A stretch of DNA of 38,469 nucleotides from Gammaproteobacteria bacterium. GTDB lineage: Bacteria; Pseudomonadota; Gammaproteobacteria; SZUA-152. The translations under genes and the position numbers were made by a program. Under the pieces are notes generated by a model that was not told the origin of the DNA, made no database searches, and saw nothing but the letters and a program-made list of their open reading frames with translations. The stretch is from positions 1 to 38,469 of the forward strand of contig JAVVEP010000028.1 in NCBI GenBank assembly GCA_032250735.1. The letters run 5' to 3'. Shown here piece after piece: positions 4,827-8,146 of the stretch (positions are counted from its first letter, which is position 1; the number at the start of each line of letters is the position of its first letter).

Positions 4827-5561
4827 TCAGATGCCTTTCTTCCAGCGCTCCACCCACATCGCCGTGGCGCCGGCCACCGCCGCCGGCATCACCACAAAGT
4901 TGACCACCGGAATCAGCGTCGCGATGCTCACCGTGGCACCAAAACCCAGCGACATCAGGCGTTTTTCCCCCAGCCGGCGCTTCTGTTCGTCCGCCCGCAG
5001 GCCGTGATTGCCCATGGGGTAATCGGCGTATTCCACCGCCAGCATCCAGGCGCTGAAGGCCAGCCACAGGAAGGGGGCCGCGAGATTGAGCACGGGGATC
5101 AGGAACAGCAGCAAAAACGGGATCGACCAGGCGAGCAGATAGAGCAGTTTGCGCAGCTCGTCGATGATGGTGGGCACCAGCTCCGTGAGCAGCTTCTTCC
5201 AGCCGCCATCGGCCGGCGGCGACTCGCCGGTGAGGTGTCGCTCCACCGCCTCGGCCAGCAGGCTGTTGAAGGGGCTGGCAATCAGGTTGGCCAGCAGCGA
5301 AAACACATAAAACAGGATCAGCAGGGCCGCCAGGCCAAACAGCGCCCACAGCACCCATTCCAGCCACTGTAGCCACTCCGGCAAGACGGGCAGCAGCCAT
5401 TGCAGCAGGGCCTCAAACTGGCTGCTGCCAAACCAGATCAGCCCGGCAAACAGCAGGAGATTGATCAACAGCGGGATCACCACATAGCGTCGCAGCCCCG
5501 GCTGCACGATGAGTCGCAGGCCCTGAAAAAAATAGCCGATGCCGGAAAAGGGATTGCTCAT
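4827..5561 (-). CDS. cysZ: CysZ-like sulfate permease (EI24 family)
   Basis: A 244-residue inner-membrane protein. Hydrophobic segments are seen around residues 25-45, 65-95, 140-175 and 210-230. CysZ mediates sulfate entry that feeds assimilatory sulfur metabolism. Family features include the N-terminal NPFSGIGYFFQGLRLI, LLANLIASPFNSLLAE after the second hydrophobic block, and the EYADYPMGNHGL segment with following basic residues. Length agrees with known CysZ (about 250). Its ATG overlaps the stop of the upstream FGGY kinase gene by 4 bases (ATGA), so the two are translationally coupled. No cys biosynthetic genes are near. The 226 bp downstream, to the aminotransferase stop, contain a run of T but no convincing terminator hairpin. 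Confidence 0.88.
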   Translation of the reverse strand: MSNPFSGIGYFFQGLRLIVQPGLRRYVVIPLLINLLLFAGLIWFGSSQFEALLQWLLPVLPEWLQWLEWVLWALFGLAALLILFYVFSLLANLIASPFNSLLAEAVERHLTGESPPADGGWKKLLTELVPTIIDELRKLLYLLAWSIPFLLLFLIPVLNLAAPFLWLAFSAWMLAVEYADYPMGNHGLRADEQKRRLGEKRLMSLGFGATVSIATLIPVVNFVVMPAAVAGATAMWVERWKKGI

Positions 5562-6883
5562 GGTGAAGGGCTCCTGGAGGGCTGAGAACCTGCAGCCAGC
5601 AGGGCGGCCCCAAAGGCCGCCTCGGTGTGTGCGGCGTCCTGCATCGGGGTCTGTAAATACTGATGACGGATCTGTGTCCAGGCCGCGTTGCCGGCACCAC
5701 CGCCGGTGGTGCGCACGGAGACCGGGTACGGCGCCCCCAGCTCGGCGAGCAGGCGATAGGCGCGGGCCTCGATGGCCGCGATGCCCTCTAACAGACCCTG
5801 CAAGAATAGCCGCTCATCGTCGGGGCGGGGGCTGAGGCGCGGCGCGAGCCGGGCATCGTTAATGGGAAAGCGCTCGCCGATGGCGGGCAGGGGATAATAG
5901 TCCAGCCCACTGTGGTATCGGCCCTGCGGGTCGGGGACGATCTGGGCGCTCAGGGCCTGCAGTTGTGTATCACTGAAATACTGCCGCAAGACCGCGCCGC
6001 CACTGTTGGAGGCCCCGCCCACCAGCCAGCGTTGCCGGCCGTCCACCATCAGCGGCTGGCTGTAGACGCCGTAGTCCGCGGCGAAGATCGGCTGCTCGGC
6101 GATGACTTTGACCACCAGGGTGGAGCCCAGCGCGGTCACGGCCTCGCCCACCGCATGGGCCCCGGTGGCCATAAATGAGGCAGTGCTGTCGGTGGTGCCG
6201 GCCACGATGCGGGTGTCCCCGGCCAGCCCAAAACGCTGTGCAAGCTCGTGGCGGATCGGGCCGATGGGCGTGCCGGGGGCGATGACCGTCGGCAGCAGCT
6301 GTGGTGGCAGCTCGAGCGCGGCCAGCCACGTCGGCCAGCCCGGTTGCCCGGCATCGAAGCCCAGCTTGAGCGCGTTGTTGTAATCGCTGATGCCGAACCG
6401 GCCGCACAGCCGGCCGGCAATCCAGTCGGCCTGATGCAGCAGGTGGTCGGCGGCGGCGGTCTGGCCGTGGTCTTTGAGCCACAGCAGTTTGGCCAGGGCG
6501 CAGCTGGCGCCCTGGGCGGCGGTGTTGTCGGGCGCGACCCGGGCGATGGCCGCCGCCTGGCCGCTGGCGCGGGCATCGTTATACATCAGAGCGGGGCCGA
6601 GCGGGGTGCCGTTGCGATCGGTTAGCAGCACCGTGGCCGAGGTGCCGTCCACGGCGATGGCCGTCACTTGATCAGCGTTGATGTTTGCGGTGAGTGAATC
6701 GAGACAGTCGCAAACAGCGACCCACCATAGCTCAGGGTCCTGTTCGACGTGTGTACCACTGCGATTCGGCGCAGACAGATCCACGGCGGCCTCGGCGTGG
6801 AGGTTGTGATGCTCATCAATGGCAACGGCCCGGACGCCGGAGGTGCCTAGATCGATGCCGATGAATAGGGGGGAATGGTTCAT
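5558..6883 (-). CDS. FGGY-family carbohydrate kinase (ribulokinase-like)
   Basis: Phosphorylates a sugar or sugar alcohol with ATP. The 441 residues show the two actin-like FGGY domains: IGIDLGTSGVRAV at the N-terminus (phosphate loop), AVDGTSATV, the MYNDARASGQA segment, GTTDSTASFMATGA in the second domain, and TTGGGAGNAAWTQI near the C-terminus for adenosine binding. It is shorter than xylulokinase or glycerol kinase (about 490-500) and is closest in feel to the short D-ribulose kinases of cyanobacteria and plants; the substrate is therefore inferred as a pentulose. The start ATG at 6883 lies 7 residues before the phosphate loop. The gene is the first of a coupled pair with cysZ. Its promoter region, if directly upstream, would lie in the repeat block at 6891-7145. 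Confidence 0.82.
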   Translation of the reverse strand: MNHSPLFIGIDLGTSGVRAVAIDEHHNLHAEAAVDLSAPNRSGTHVEQDPELWWVAVCDCLDSLTANINADQVTAIAVDGTSATVLLTDRNGTPLGPALMYNDARASGQAAAIARVAPDNTAAQGASCALAKLLWLKDHGQTAAADHLLHQADWIAGRLCGRFGISDYNNALKLGFDAGQPGWPTWLAALELPPQLLPTVIAPGTPIGPIRHELAQRFGLAGDTRIVAGTTDSTASFMATGAHAVGEAVTALGSTLVVKVIAEQPIFAADYGVYSQPLMVDGRQRWLVGGASNSGGAVLRQYFSDTQLQALSAQIVPDPQGRYHSGLDYYPLPAIGERFPINDARLAPRLSPRPDDERLFLQGLLEGIAAIEARAYRLLAELGAPYPVSVRTTGGGAGNAAWTQIRHQYLQTPMQDAAHTEAAFGAALLAAGSQPSRSPSP

Positions 6884-6890
6884 TTTTCTT

Positions 6891-7145
6891 TCCCCTCACC
6901 CCAGCCCTCTCCCCCAGGGGGGCGAGGGGGTAAAAGACGACTGTGTTTTGAGATGTAGGAATGTATCACTACTGGCTTCGTCATTCCCTCTTCCCCAGGG
7001 GGCGAGGGGGTAAAAGACGACTGTGTTTTGAGATGTAGGAATATATCACTACTGTCTTCGTCATCCCCTCTCCCCTTTGGGGAGAGGGTTAGGGTGAGGG
7101 GTTTCATTCATCCCCTTTGGGGAGAGGGTTAGGGTGAGGGGTTTC
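6891..7145. repeat. REP-like G/C-rich repeat block with nested tandem duplications
   Basis: Composite of short palindromic units of the CCCTCACCC...CTCTCCCC type that occur widely in proteobacterial intergenic DNA. One unit at 6892-6930 points one way. Two units at 7071-7101 and 7111-7141 point the other way and form a 40-bp tandem repeat (TTTGGGGAGAGGGTTAGGG and neighbours). Between them an 80-bp sequence is tandemly duplicated (about 6919-6990 and 6999-7070) with three differences. The last unit extends into the 3' end of the DUF559 reading frame. Confidence 0.9.
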
Positions 7146-7487
7146 ATTCAATGCACAGAAAATCACCTCGAGCACAGTTTCAGTTTCTGTCAGCACTTCA
7201 TTATTCCAAAACCGCAGCACCCGAAATCCCTGAGCTTCTAAAAAGGTAGTCCGTTTTTCGTCTTGCGTTTGTCGTTCGGCATGTTGCCCACCGTCTGCCT
7301 CAACGATGAGCTTCTTCTCCAAACAAACGAAATCGACAATATAGGGTGGAATGGGGTGTTGGCGACGAAATTTGGCATTGAGGATTTGCCGATTACGAAG
7401 TCGTTGCCAAAGCGTTTGTTCAGCTTCCGTGGCCTGTTGGCGGAGGTCTTTGGCGAAGTCGTTTATTTGTCCGTGATTCACCGCCAT
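7104..7487 (-). CDS. DUF559 domain protein (Vsr/PD-(D/E)XK-like nuclease fold)
   Basis: A 127-residue protein with the DUF559 pattern: AEQTLWQRLRNRQ, then FRRQHPIPPYIVDFVC, then LIVEADGGQH, then the FLEAQGFRVLRFWNNEVL strand. The Asp of VDF and the Glu and Asp of VEADGGQH correspond to the catalytic acidic residues expected in this endonuclease-like fold. The family is related to Vsr-type nucleases, but its activity is not established. The domain ends at about residue 115 (VIFCALNE). The last 12 residues (TPHPNPLPKGDE) are encoded by the REP-like repeat, so the frame has run into repeat DNA until a chance stop. No clear ribosome binding site precedes the ATG at 7487. It lies 17 bp downstream of the queF stop on the same strand. 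Confidence 0.82.
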   Translation of the reverse strand: MAVNHGQINDFAKDLRQQATEAEQTLWQRLRNRQILNAKFRRQHPIPPYIVDFVCLEKKLIVEADGGQHAERQTQDEKRTTFLEAQGFRVLRFWNNEVLTETETVLEVIFCALNETPHPNPLPKGDE

Positions 7488-7504: not shown

Positions 7505-7894
7505 TTAAGGCAGCTCGACCCGCTCGGGTGGCTGCCAGCCGGCGGCGCGATGCTCGACGATCACCGAGGTGTAGATGCCGCCGCGTACATTGAATTCGCC
7601 GCTCAGGCGCATGAAGCGGGGCGCACAGGCGGCGACCATGTCGCCGAGTATCCGGTTGGTGACGGCCTCGTGAAAGGCGCCCTCATCACGAAAGGACCAC
7701 ATGTACATCTTCAACGATTTCAGTTCGATGCAGGCCCTGTCTGCGATGTATTCGAGGTGAAAGGTGGCGAAATCCGGCTGCCCGGTCTTGGGACACAGGC
7801 AGGTGAATTCGGGGATATCGATGCGGATGGTGTAGTCACGCTCGGGATTCGGGTTATCGAAGGTTTCGAGCGTTTTGGACGGTTTGCTGGACAT
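7505..7894 (-). CDS. queF: NADPH-dependent 7-cyano-7-deazaguanine reductase, short type
   Basis: Reduces the nitrile preQ0 to the amine preQ1 in queuosine biosynthesis. This is the single-domain (Bacillus-type) QueF of about 129 residues, not the double-domain E. coli form of 282. Seen: [14 protein letters not shown] with the thioimide-forming Cys34 and the proton donor Asp41, seven residues apart as in the family, and the [13 protein letters not shown] segment that holds the NADPH-binding QueF motif. The C-terminus contains FNVRGGI. The start at 7894 is chosen because it lies at the usual distance from these motifs; the frame is open to 7957. No preQ1 riboswitch or convincing ribosome binding site was recognised upstream. 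Downstream comes the DUF559 gene. Confidence 0.93.
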
Positions 7895-8146
7895 GATGGA
7901 CTCGCTGGCTGTGGGACGGACGGAGTGTACATAAAGGATGCAGGTTGGTGCATCCACGTTAAAGGTATGAAAAATCAGCCGCGTACGATACCCGAATTTG
8001 ACAATATTCTCACCGTTGGGACGTCATTTTGTGGGCTTTGCTGCAAGAAAGTGCCTGTCAATATTGTGCCATTGGCGGCGCTCCGGTATCTTGCTTGCCT
8101 GACAATTTATCTGCCCCTCCAGCACAAAATTTGAGCACAGCTATCC

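Follow-up and report, generated by a model that had tools for sequence, protein, structure and literature searches.

Association of DUF559 nuclease genes with inverted BoxC-type repeats suggests a gene-plus-repeat system

The DNA analyzed here, referred to as the window, is a stretch of 38,469 nucleotides from a gammaproteobacterium (GenBank assembly GCA_032250735.1, contig JAVVEP010000028.1). The open reading frame at 7104-7487 on the minus strand encodes a protein of 127 amino acids of the DUF559 family (Pfam PF04480, E 2.2e-44, 150.2 bits against a gathering score of 20.6). It is the only DUF559 gene of the genome. The unit to which it belongs is located between queF and an FGGY kinase gene; the gene is intact, and the unit has no upstream end. 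The features of the site are as follows.

5558-6883, minus strand: FGGY carbohydrate kinase gene (Pfam FGGY_N, FGGY_C), the downstream neighbor on the other side of the site.
6893-6928, minus strand: exact TM_ECO/BoxC match in inverted orientation, 5' of the FGGY kinase gene (published pattern and repeat comparison).
6913-7072, no strand assigned: two 80-nt tandem units, 93% alike, occupying the gap between the inverted copies (repeat comparison).
7066-7100, plus strand: exact TM_ECO/BoxC match, with the third-strand side towards the gene (published pattern).
7071-7110, minus strand: second tandem copy of the 40-nt unit, containing the stop codon (repeat comparison).
7104-7487, minus strand: DUF559 nuclease gene, 127 aa, with a repeat-encoded tail (PF04480; structure model, pLDDT 88.5; dN/dS against locus L146).
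7111-7150, minus strand: first repeat copy 3' of the gene body, on the gene strand and read as the protein tail; most of its outer arm is absent (identical to 7071-7110).
7505-7957, minus strand: queF (Pfam QueF), the upstream neighbor of the DUF559 gene; the site is conserved in the family and has no upstream hairpin here.

An earlier note on this DNA had described a DUF559 frame ending inside a palindromic repeat. This was confirmed at the coordinates given there: the frame crosses the repeat copy at 7111-7150 and ends a few bases into the next one, and the protein tail NETPHPNPLPKGDE comes from the repeat. The two tandem copies, 7071-7110 and 7111-7150, are identical over 40 nt, and the inverted copy at 6892-6921 is 87% complementary. 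The two further copies and one inverted copy of the earlier description were thus right in substance, with the copy adjoining the gene lacking most of its outer arm. The 80-nt tandem units at 6913-7072 represent a local duplication beside a motif that Holder et al. link to instability.

In the sections of Holder et al. (2015, PMC4666352) drawn on here, BoxC is equated with the PIT element and with the intrastrand triplex motif TM_ECO, whose pattern is CCCTCNCCC N3-6 GGGNGAGGG N3 GGGNGAGGG. According to the same sections, BoxC was discovered in E. coli in the 1990s, the E. coli sequence forms an intrastrand triplex in vitro, and 3610 TM_ECO motifs were counted over 262 proteobacterial genomes and linked to genome instability. 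These sections report no mobility gene and no transposase remnants near TM_ECO, and no terminator activity of PIT elements. Across the whole 38-kb window, the published pattern occurs exactly twice, at 7066-7100 (plus) and 6893-6928 (minus); the two copies are mutually inverted and both adjoin the DUF559 gene. The repeat therefore has the sequence of BoxC but differs from the published element in being tied to a DUF559 gene. No link of DUF559 or YcjD to these repeats was found in the titles and abstract openings of the open PMC literature, among the matches listed. Rfam gave three matches at E 0.5-0.8, none near the gathering score. The family of short palindromes envisaged in the earlier note exists in the genome: the repeat 22-mer, with up to 3 mismatches, was detected in 15 copies in 3.43 Mb and the reversed pattern in none, indicating that the repeat is not due to chance.

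DUF559 was detected at E<=1e-20 in 73 of 369 genomes of the window's class. The class set was assembled from 110 places or clusters (101 from the main search, 9 from another), each taken with as much as 8 kb of flanking sequence on either side. By profile, 110 class loci including the window hold DUF559, and L153 had none under that profile. G311:C290 was left out because of the contig end, and of the further places nine were taken and the weaker ones were not. The named set consisted of 80 named loci from several phyla, ranked with a query that ends in the repeat's own tail, which can favor repeat-bearing loci. The two sets overlap in at least three contigs (L190/L150, L247/L053, and L262/L097).

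The association between DUF559 genes and the repeat is very strong. The repeat 21-mer, with up to 3 mismatches, was located within 500 bp of DUF559 in 45 of the 110 class loci. Its density fell from 20 per 10 kb in the nearest 150 bp to between 0.1 and 0.4 at distances above 500 bp. A reversed control 21-mer likewise rose near DUF559, but with 8 hits compared to 66. Within 100 bp, the repeat was present at 43 of 116 DUF559 genes and 35 of 1248 control ORFs (Fisher p 6e-29), a conservative comparison since some of the control hits are the DUF559-side repeat seen from a neighboring ORF. Exact TM_ECO matches within 300 bp were found at 29/110 class loci and 33/80 named loci, at densities 39-fold and 119-fold, respectively, over those beyond 1 kb. 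A lack of enrichment, the outcome that the earlier note had set against its own proposal, was therefore not observed. At the genome level, with kinship ignored, the repeat (up to 2 mismatches) was detected in 50 of the 73 genomes with DUF559 and in 53 of the 296 without it; G294, one of the repeat-bearing genomes, has an equal number of reversed-control hits. G132, with no detected DUF559, has 82 copies.

DUF559 genes are usually framed or adjoined by BoxC-type repeats in inverted orientation. Copies upstream of the gene are preferentially on the opposite strand, and downstream copies on the strand of the gene. Inverted copies on both sides within 100 bp were found at 11 of 116 DUF559 genes and at 0 of 1248 control ORFs. 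Close pairs without a gene were also detected. In the window's genome, 4/4 pairs under 60 bp were oriented as in the gene-bearing unit, and the same orientation was found in 7/7 close pairs among the matches listed in a further search, two of the seven being the same.

The framing was also scored blind to sequence, by local alignment of the 260 bp upstream with the reverse complement of the 260 bp downstream; flanks under 100 bp were excluded from all inverted-end tests. At scores of at least 20, inverted ends were found in the class set at 59/115 DUF559 genes, 8/992 control ORFs, and 59/913 mismatched ends, and in the named set at 58/80, 6/724, and 128/791, respectively. At scores of at least 14, the corresponding numbers were 78/115, 16/992, and 182/913 for the class set and 71/80, 21/724, and 329/791 for the named set. 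The cut-off of 20 is the fairer one, since the ends of different loci often match at 14 or more. The counts within loci exceeded those for mismatched ends, indicating that the ends of one locus are more alike than ends across loci. Even at 14 or more, 37 of the 115 class loci had no inverted ends. The two control gene families gave 0/30 (ParE) and 0/25 (Y1_Tnp/RAYT) at 20 or more and, for Y1_Tnp/RAYT, one locus at 14 or more; the BoxC motif within 2 mismatches was absent at all ParE and Y1_Tnp loci scored. Fifteen control ORFs had inverted ends at 19 or more, ten of which were scanned; one control ORF with inverted ends (L096:12808-13338) is a Y1_Tnp gene itself.

The reading of the repeat as protein tail is not confined to the window. 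A PxPLP tail ends 35 of 170 DUF559 frames, and 91/170 stop within the C-rich repeat or past its start. At several loci (L072, L083, L096, L100, L116, L128, L139, and others), the DUF559 domain lies within a stop-free frame of 600 to 1200 residues, perhaps by read-through of GC-rich flanks or as a fusion.

Repeat types besides BoxC are CCCCCTTT/AAAGGGGG (AT-rich), CTCCT/AGGAGG, CCTTCTCC, and CCCTCCCC. Of 298 purine-arm hairpins by DUF559 genes, 136 carried a perfect mirror-image third strand on the side of the gene and 51 on the outer side, compared to 3 after shuffling. Judging from the gene-side count, the TM_ECO triplex design seems to be common to the repeat types.

Most hairpin types follow nuclease clades. 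On a tree of 178 proteins, with types assigned by crude regular expressions and with near copies sharing both nuclease and repeat, hairpin type changed 52 times, compared to a shuffled mean of 74.7 (as low in 0/200 shuffles). Types A, B, and C clustered on the tree (0/500 shuffles each), type E less so (6/500), and type D not clearly (15 changes compared to 16.4 after shuffling, as low in 55/500). Of the 9 genomes that have the matching nuclease clade, 7 contain at least six copies of the AT-rich pattern, compared to 6 of 64 other genomes with DUF559 and 5 of 296 without it; the pattern was derived from loci of the tested clade, and the counts include copies beside DUF559. All six copies in G113 lie near its DUF559 gene, and G199, a genome without detected DUF559, has 89 copies of the type. 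Compared to the backgrounds of other loci, that of its own locus was the better match for a hairpin end (mean rank 0.64, n=113, p 1.2e-5).

The best NCBIfam model for the window protein was PRK09767 (114 bits, below the cut-off of 218), which we take to be YcjD. In the record of E. coli K-12, ycjD is annotated as DUF559, the same Pfam family as the window protein, and a hairpin of the same sequence is located about 165 bp downstream, before fabI. The ycjD frame of strain 2021CK-01784 (L287) terminates within such a hairpin. At the K-12 gene, the inverted-end test detected no matching end upstream (score 8). Directly upstream of it is a perfect palindrome of another sequence (CTCATTCTGACAA...TTGTCAGAATGAG; L284:5761-5840). 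An E. coli control genome gave no PF04480 match, though K-12 carries ycjD; either this was another strain or the search missed the gene.

The ycjD region was detected, at 80% or more in one place, in 3333 of 5426 E. coli genomes, and the BoxC hairpin in a median of 19 places per genome. For comparison of the two, 60 records evenly spread over 5420 were sampled and one plasmid was left out, giving 59 chromosomes. The 37 chromosomes with ycjD had 16 to 31 matching places (median, 23) and the 22 without it 3 to 20 (median, 5), with the ycjD or fabI place itself included in the count. The difference was significant by the Mann-Whitney test (p 6e-10), which ignores kinship, and few lineages underlie it. 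O157-like E. coli have no ycjD, yet 13 to 16 places. Neither of the two ycjD-less E. coli genomes compared (L285 and L286) has a precise empty site; other genes replace sapF-ycjD there.

Given the observed association, the bracketing, the likeness of the ends of one locus, and the tendency of most hairpin types to go with particular nuclease clades, it is on balance probable that DUF559 genes belong together with BoxC-type repeats in a single gene-plus-repeat system, which would resemble that of RAYT transposases and REP sequences. This suggests that BoxC repeats are spread or maintained by the DUF559 nuclease, which would be their missing enzyme. We infer that DUF559 mobilizes the repeats, in what would best be read as a partnership like that of RAYT and REP, but with an enzyme of unrelated fold, PD-(D/E)XK (Vsr/homing-endonuclease). 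A full unit would consist of a hairpin with a mirror-image third strand, the DUF559 gene, and the same hairpin inverted, and the gene-less pairs of ends elsewhere would be its non-autonomous form. The nuclease may recognize an end that is single-stranded and folded as a hairpin or triplex, as could occur at the replication fork, and nick it; through repair, nicking could then lead to the copying or conversion of the whole unit or of individual ends.

Several results weigh against the gene-plus-repeat system. Target-site duplications showed no excess over permuted flanks in 126 elements, and no precise empty site was obtained. The repeat occurs in the 53 genomes without detected DUF559, O157-like E. 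coli keep their places, and the 37 class loci mentioned above have no inverted ends; the genome-level and E. coli tests ignore kinship. PD-(D/E)XK enzymes are known to hydrolyze strands and are not known to join them. The lack of target-site duplication is consistent with a process that is REP-like or based on repair, and it argues against a DDE transposon.

The parallel to REP elements and their RAYT nucleases drawn in the earlier note holds for the layout. As described in parts of two reports (PMC3733652, PMC8266576), in the REPtron/TIRYT layout a single small nuclease gene has palindromic repeats on its flanks, and these repeats are also dispersed singly and as inverted pairs. The DUF559 system shares with TnpA_REP and with TIRYTs and their TIRs the gene-flanking repeats that are also dispersed in the genome, and no target-site duplication was seen here. 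It differs in the enzyme, which is a PD-(D/E)XK protein (PF04480) and not HUH Y1, in the mirror-image third strand carried by its ends, and in the foot of the repeat, which is GGGTGAGGGG-like and not GTAG. The tag GTAG (or CGTC) was not found, and the window copies end in the foot TTAGGGTGAGGGG. Moreover, the DUF559 repeat was absent from the flanks of the Y1 genes sampled in these genomes (0/30 loci). The RAYT/REP partnership is the nearest working analogy; with a non-HUH enzyme and no GTAG tag, the DUF559 system does not belong to it.

The structure model of the window protein (pLDDT 88.5) matched NGO0050 (Z 17.7), the homing endonuclease I-Bth0305I (3r3p; Z 13.0, rmsd 2.6 over 94 residues), Vsr (Z 10.7), and, more weakly, TnsA (Z 7.2). 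In 34 sequences, E23, E63, D65, and H69, among others, are invariant and D52 is nearly so; these residues probably form a PD-(D/E)XK site. The catalytic-domain fold is thus similar to those of EDxHD I-Bth0305I and of Vsr, but the protein is far below the Vsr profile cut-off (NCBIfam TIGR00632, 14.3 bits compared to 97.85), and no intron or intein was seen at the window gene, which adjoins palindromic repeats. The matches obtained with PADLOC, to DpdF (E 5e-4) and to a homing endonuclease model (E 0.03), were weak and partial.

The fold bears on an alternative that we consider unlikely, namely, that DUF559 is a homing endonuclease landing in pre-existing BoxC-type pairs, which provide target and homology, and does not move the repeats. 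Its best functional fold match is I-Bth0305I, and a DUF559 gene was previously assigned to the EDxHD homing family, according to part of one report (PMC9403480). The lack of target-site duplication and the many repeats without DUF559 would be expected as well. This alternative is at odds with the tracking of nuclease clade by hairpin type and with the presence of the AT-rich type in most genomes of its clade. An enzyme cutting BoxC pairs would also break its own genome often, yet E. coli with ycjD have more BoxC.

The history of the queF site indicates what the gene has undergone in the window's family, in which queF was detected in 18 of 24 genomes. DUF559 is located beside queF in G000, G008, G011 (frameshifted), G017 (C end short), and G019, and a remnant of 37 residues is present in G002. 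The queF sites of G004 and G021 have a single hairpin only, and eight relatives have queF and the kinase with neither DUF559 nor hairpin between them. In G006 and G010, the queF stretch has no kinase and no DUF559; G010 has a partial DUF559 about 1.8 kb from queF. DUF559 at this site looks like long residence with decay and is no proof of transposition. Relatives with and without the gene at queF exist; a precise empty site was not obtained, and the earlier note's proposal of a nuclease travelling with the repeat is only partly shown. Compared to its orthologue in G008 (L146), the window gene has a dN of 0.175 and a dS of 2.19 (pS 0.71, near saturation), indicating that the gene is kept by selection. 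It is under purifying selection.

Purifying selection and vertical persistence at queF in several relatives would suit a host enzyme that trims or resolves hairpin or triplex DNA, with the copies by its own gene controlling that gene. According to part of another report (PMC12907096), the DUF559 protein VsrA of C. crescentus is required for the SOS response of cells lacking the cytosine methyltransferase; the family can therefore act on DNA in vivo. We nevertheless regard a host enzyme as improbable. The gene is patchy (73/369 genomes), some genomes have several copies, G055 has near-identical dispersed units, and the gene is bracketed by repeats instead of having a single control site.

The dispersed units of G055 have different flanks and lie inside an outer inverted repeat. 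This repeat, GTATCTACACAA, encloses DUF559 units at L062, L067, and L069 (G055) and at L142 (G341), which are possibly nested MITEs. An apparent target duplication of 9 to 11 bp was seen at the G055 units, within another palindromic repeat. It was not counted for the DUF559 unit because it lies outside the GTATCTACACAA repeat, which an unrelated DUF559 locus in G341 shares. The DUF559 unit resembles MITEs of DDE transposons in its inverted ends and gene-less copies and differs from them in having no target-site duplication above chance and no DDE gene. A DDE-type MITE was rejected on the former result in the 126 elements. RAYT was likewise rejected as the mobilizer: of 33 genomes searched, 29 have Y1_Tnp genes, but the repeat was within 1.5 kb in 0 of 30 Y1 loci (26 of which entered the inverted-end test, 25 being scorable).

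These results also make it slightly less probable still than a host enzyme that DUF559 is a passenger, hitch-hiking between repeats moved by RAYT or a DDE transposase. The frequency of Y1_Tnp genes and the units within the outer inverted repeat, with their apparent duplication, point that way. Y1 loci, however, have neither the repeat nearby nor inverted ends at 20 or more, there is no general duplication, and the sections of Holder et al. cited above report no transposase remnants near TM_ECO (PMC4666352). Finally, although the repeats are mostly intergenic and the GC-rich hairpins look like terminators, a coincidence of place, with repeats and small accessory genes sharing permissive spots or hairpins acting as terminators, is close to refuted by the ParE and Y1 loci without inverted ends at 20 or more or TM_ECO, by the rarity of such ends at control ORFs of the same loci (8/992 and 6/724), by the better match of ends within a locus than across loci, and by the PIT elements without terminator activity in those sections of PMC4666352.

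The gene-plus-repeat system proposed here for DUF559 may have a counterpart in a second nuclease family. At loci of PDDEXK_3 (PF13366; L288-L317), inverted ends were found at 14 or more in 25 of 29 scored loci and at 20 or more in 21, and mismatched ends reached 20 or more in 15/812. These ends are variants of a CACAGAGG-like tandem repeat, and no BoxC motif was found at the PDDEXK_3 loci. Since the layout is the same and the repeat is different, small PD-(D/E)XK nucleases may quite generally drive the dispersal of repeats in bacteria. A bolder possibility, serious but somewhat doubtful, is a new class of bacterial mobile element consisting of a stand-alone PD-(D/E)XK nuclease with inverted triplex-forming ends, whose gene-less derivatives would be the BoxC/PIT/TM and AT-rich CCCCCTTT/AAAGGGGG repeats. 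The link between DUF559 and BoxC would give DUF559 a likely substrate, and bacteria would have a second route besides RAYTs to gain dispersed palindromes. Tying BoxC to an enzyme carried by E. coli K-12, YcjD, would turn an old open question into a bench experiment. In G013, the interval between queF and the kinase gene (L273) contains a gene-less pair of the CACAGAGG-like repeat.
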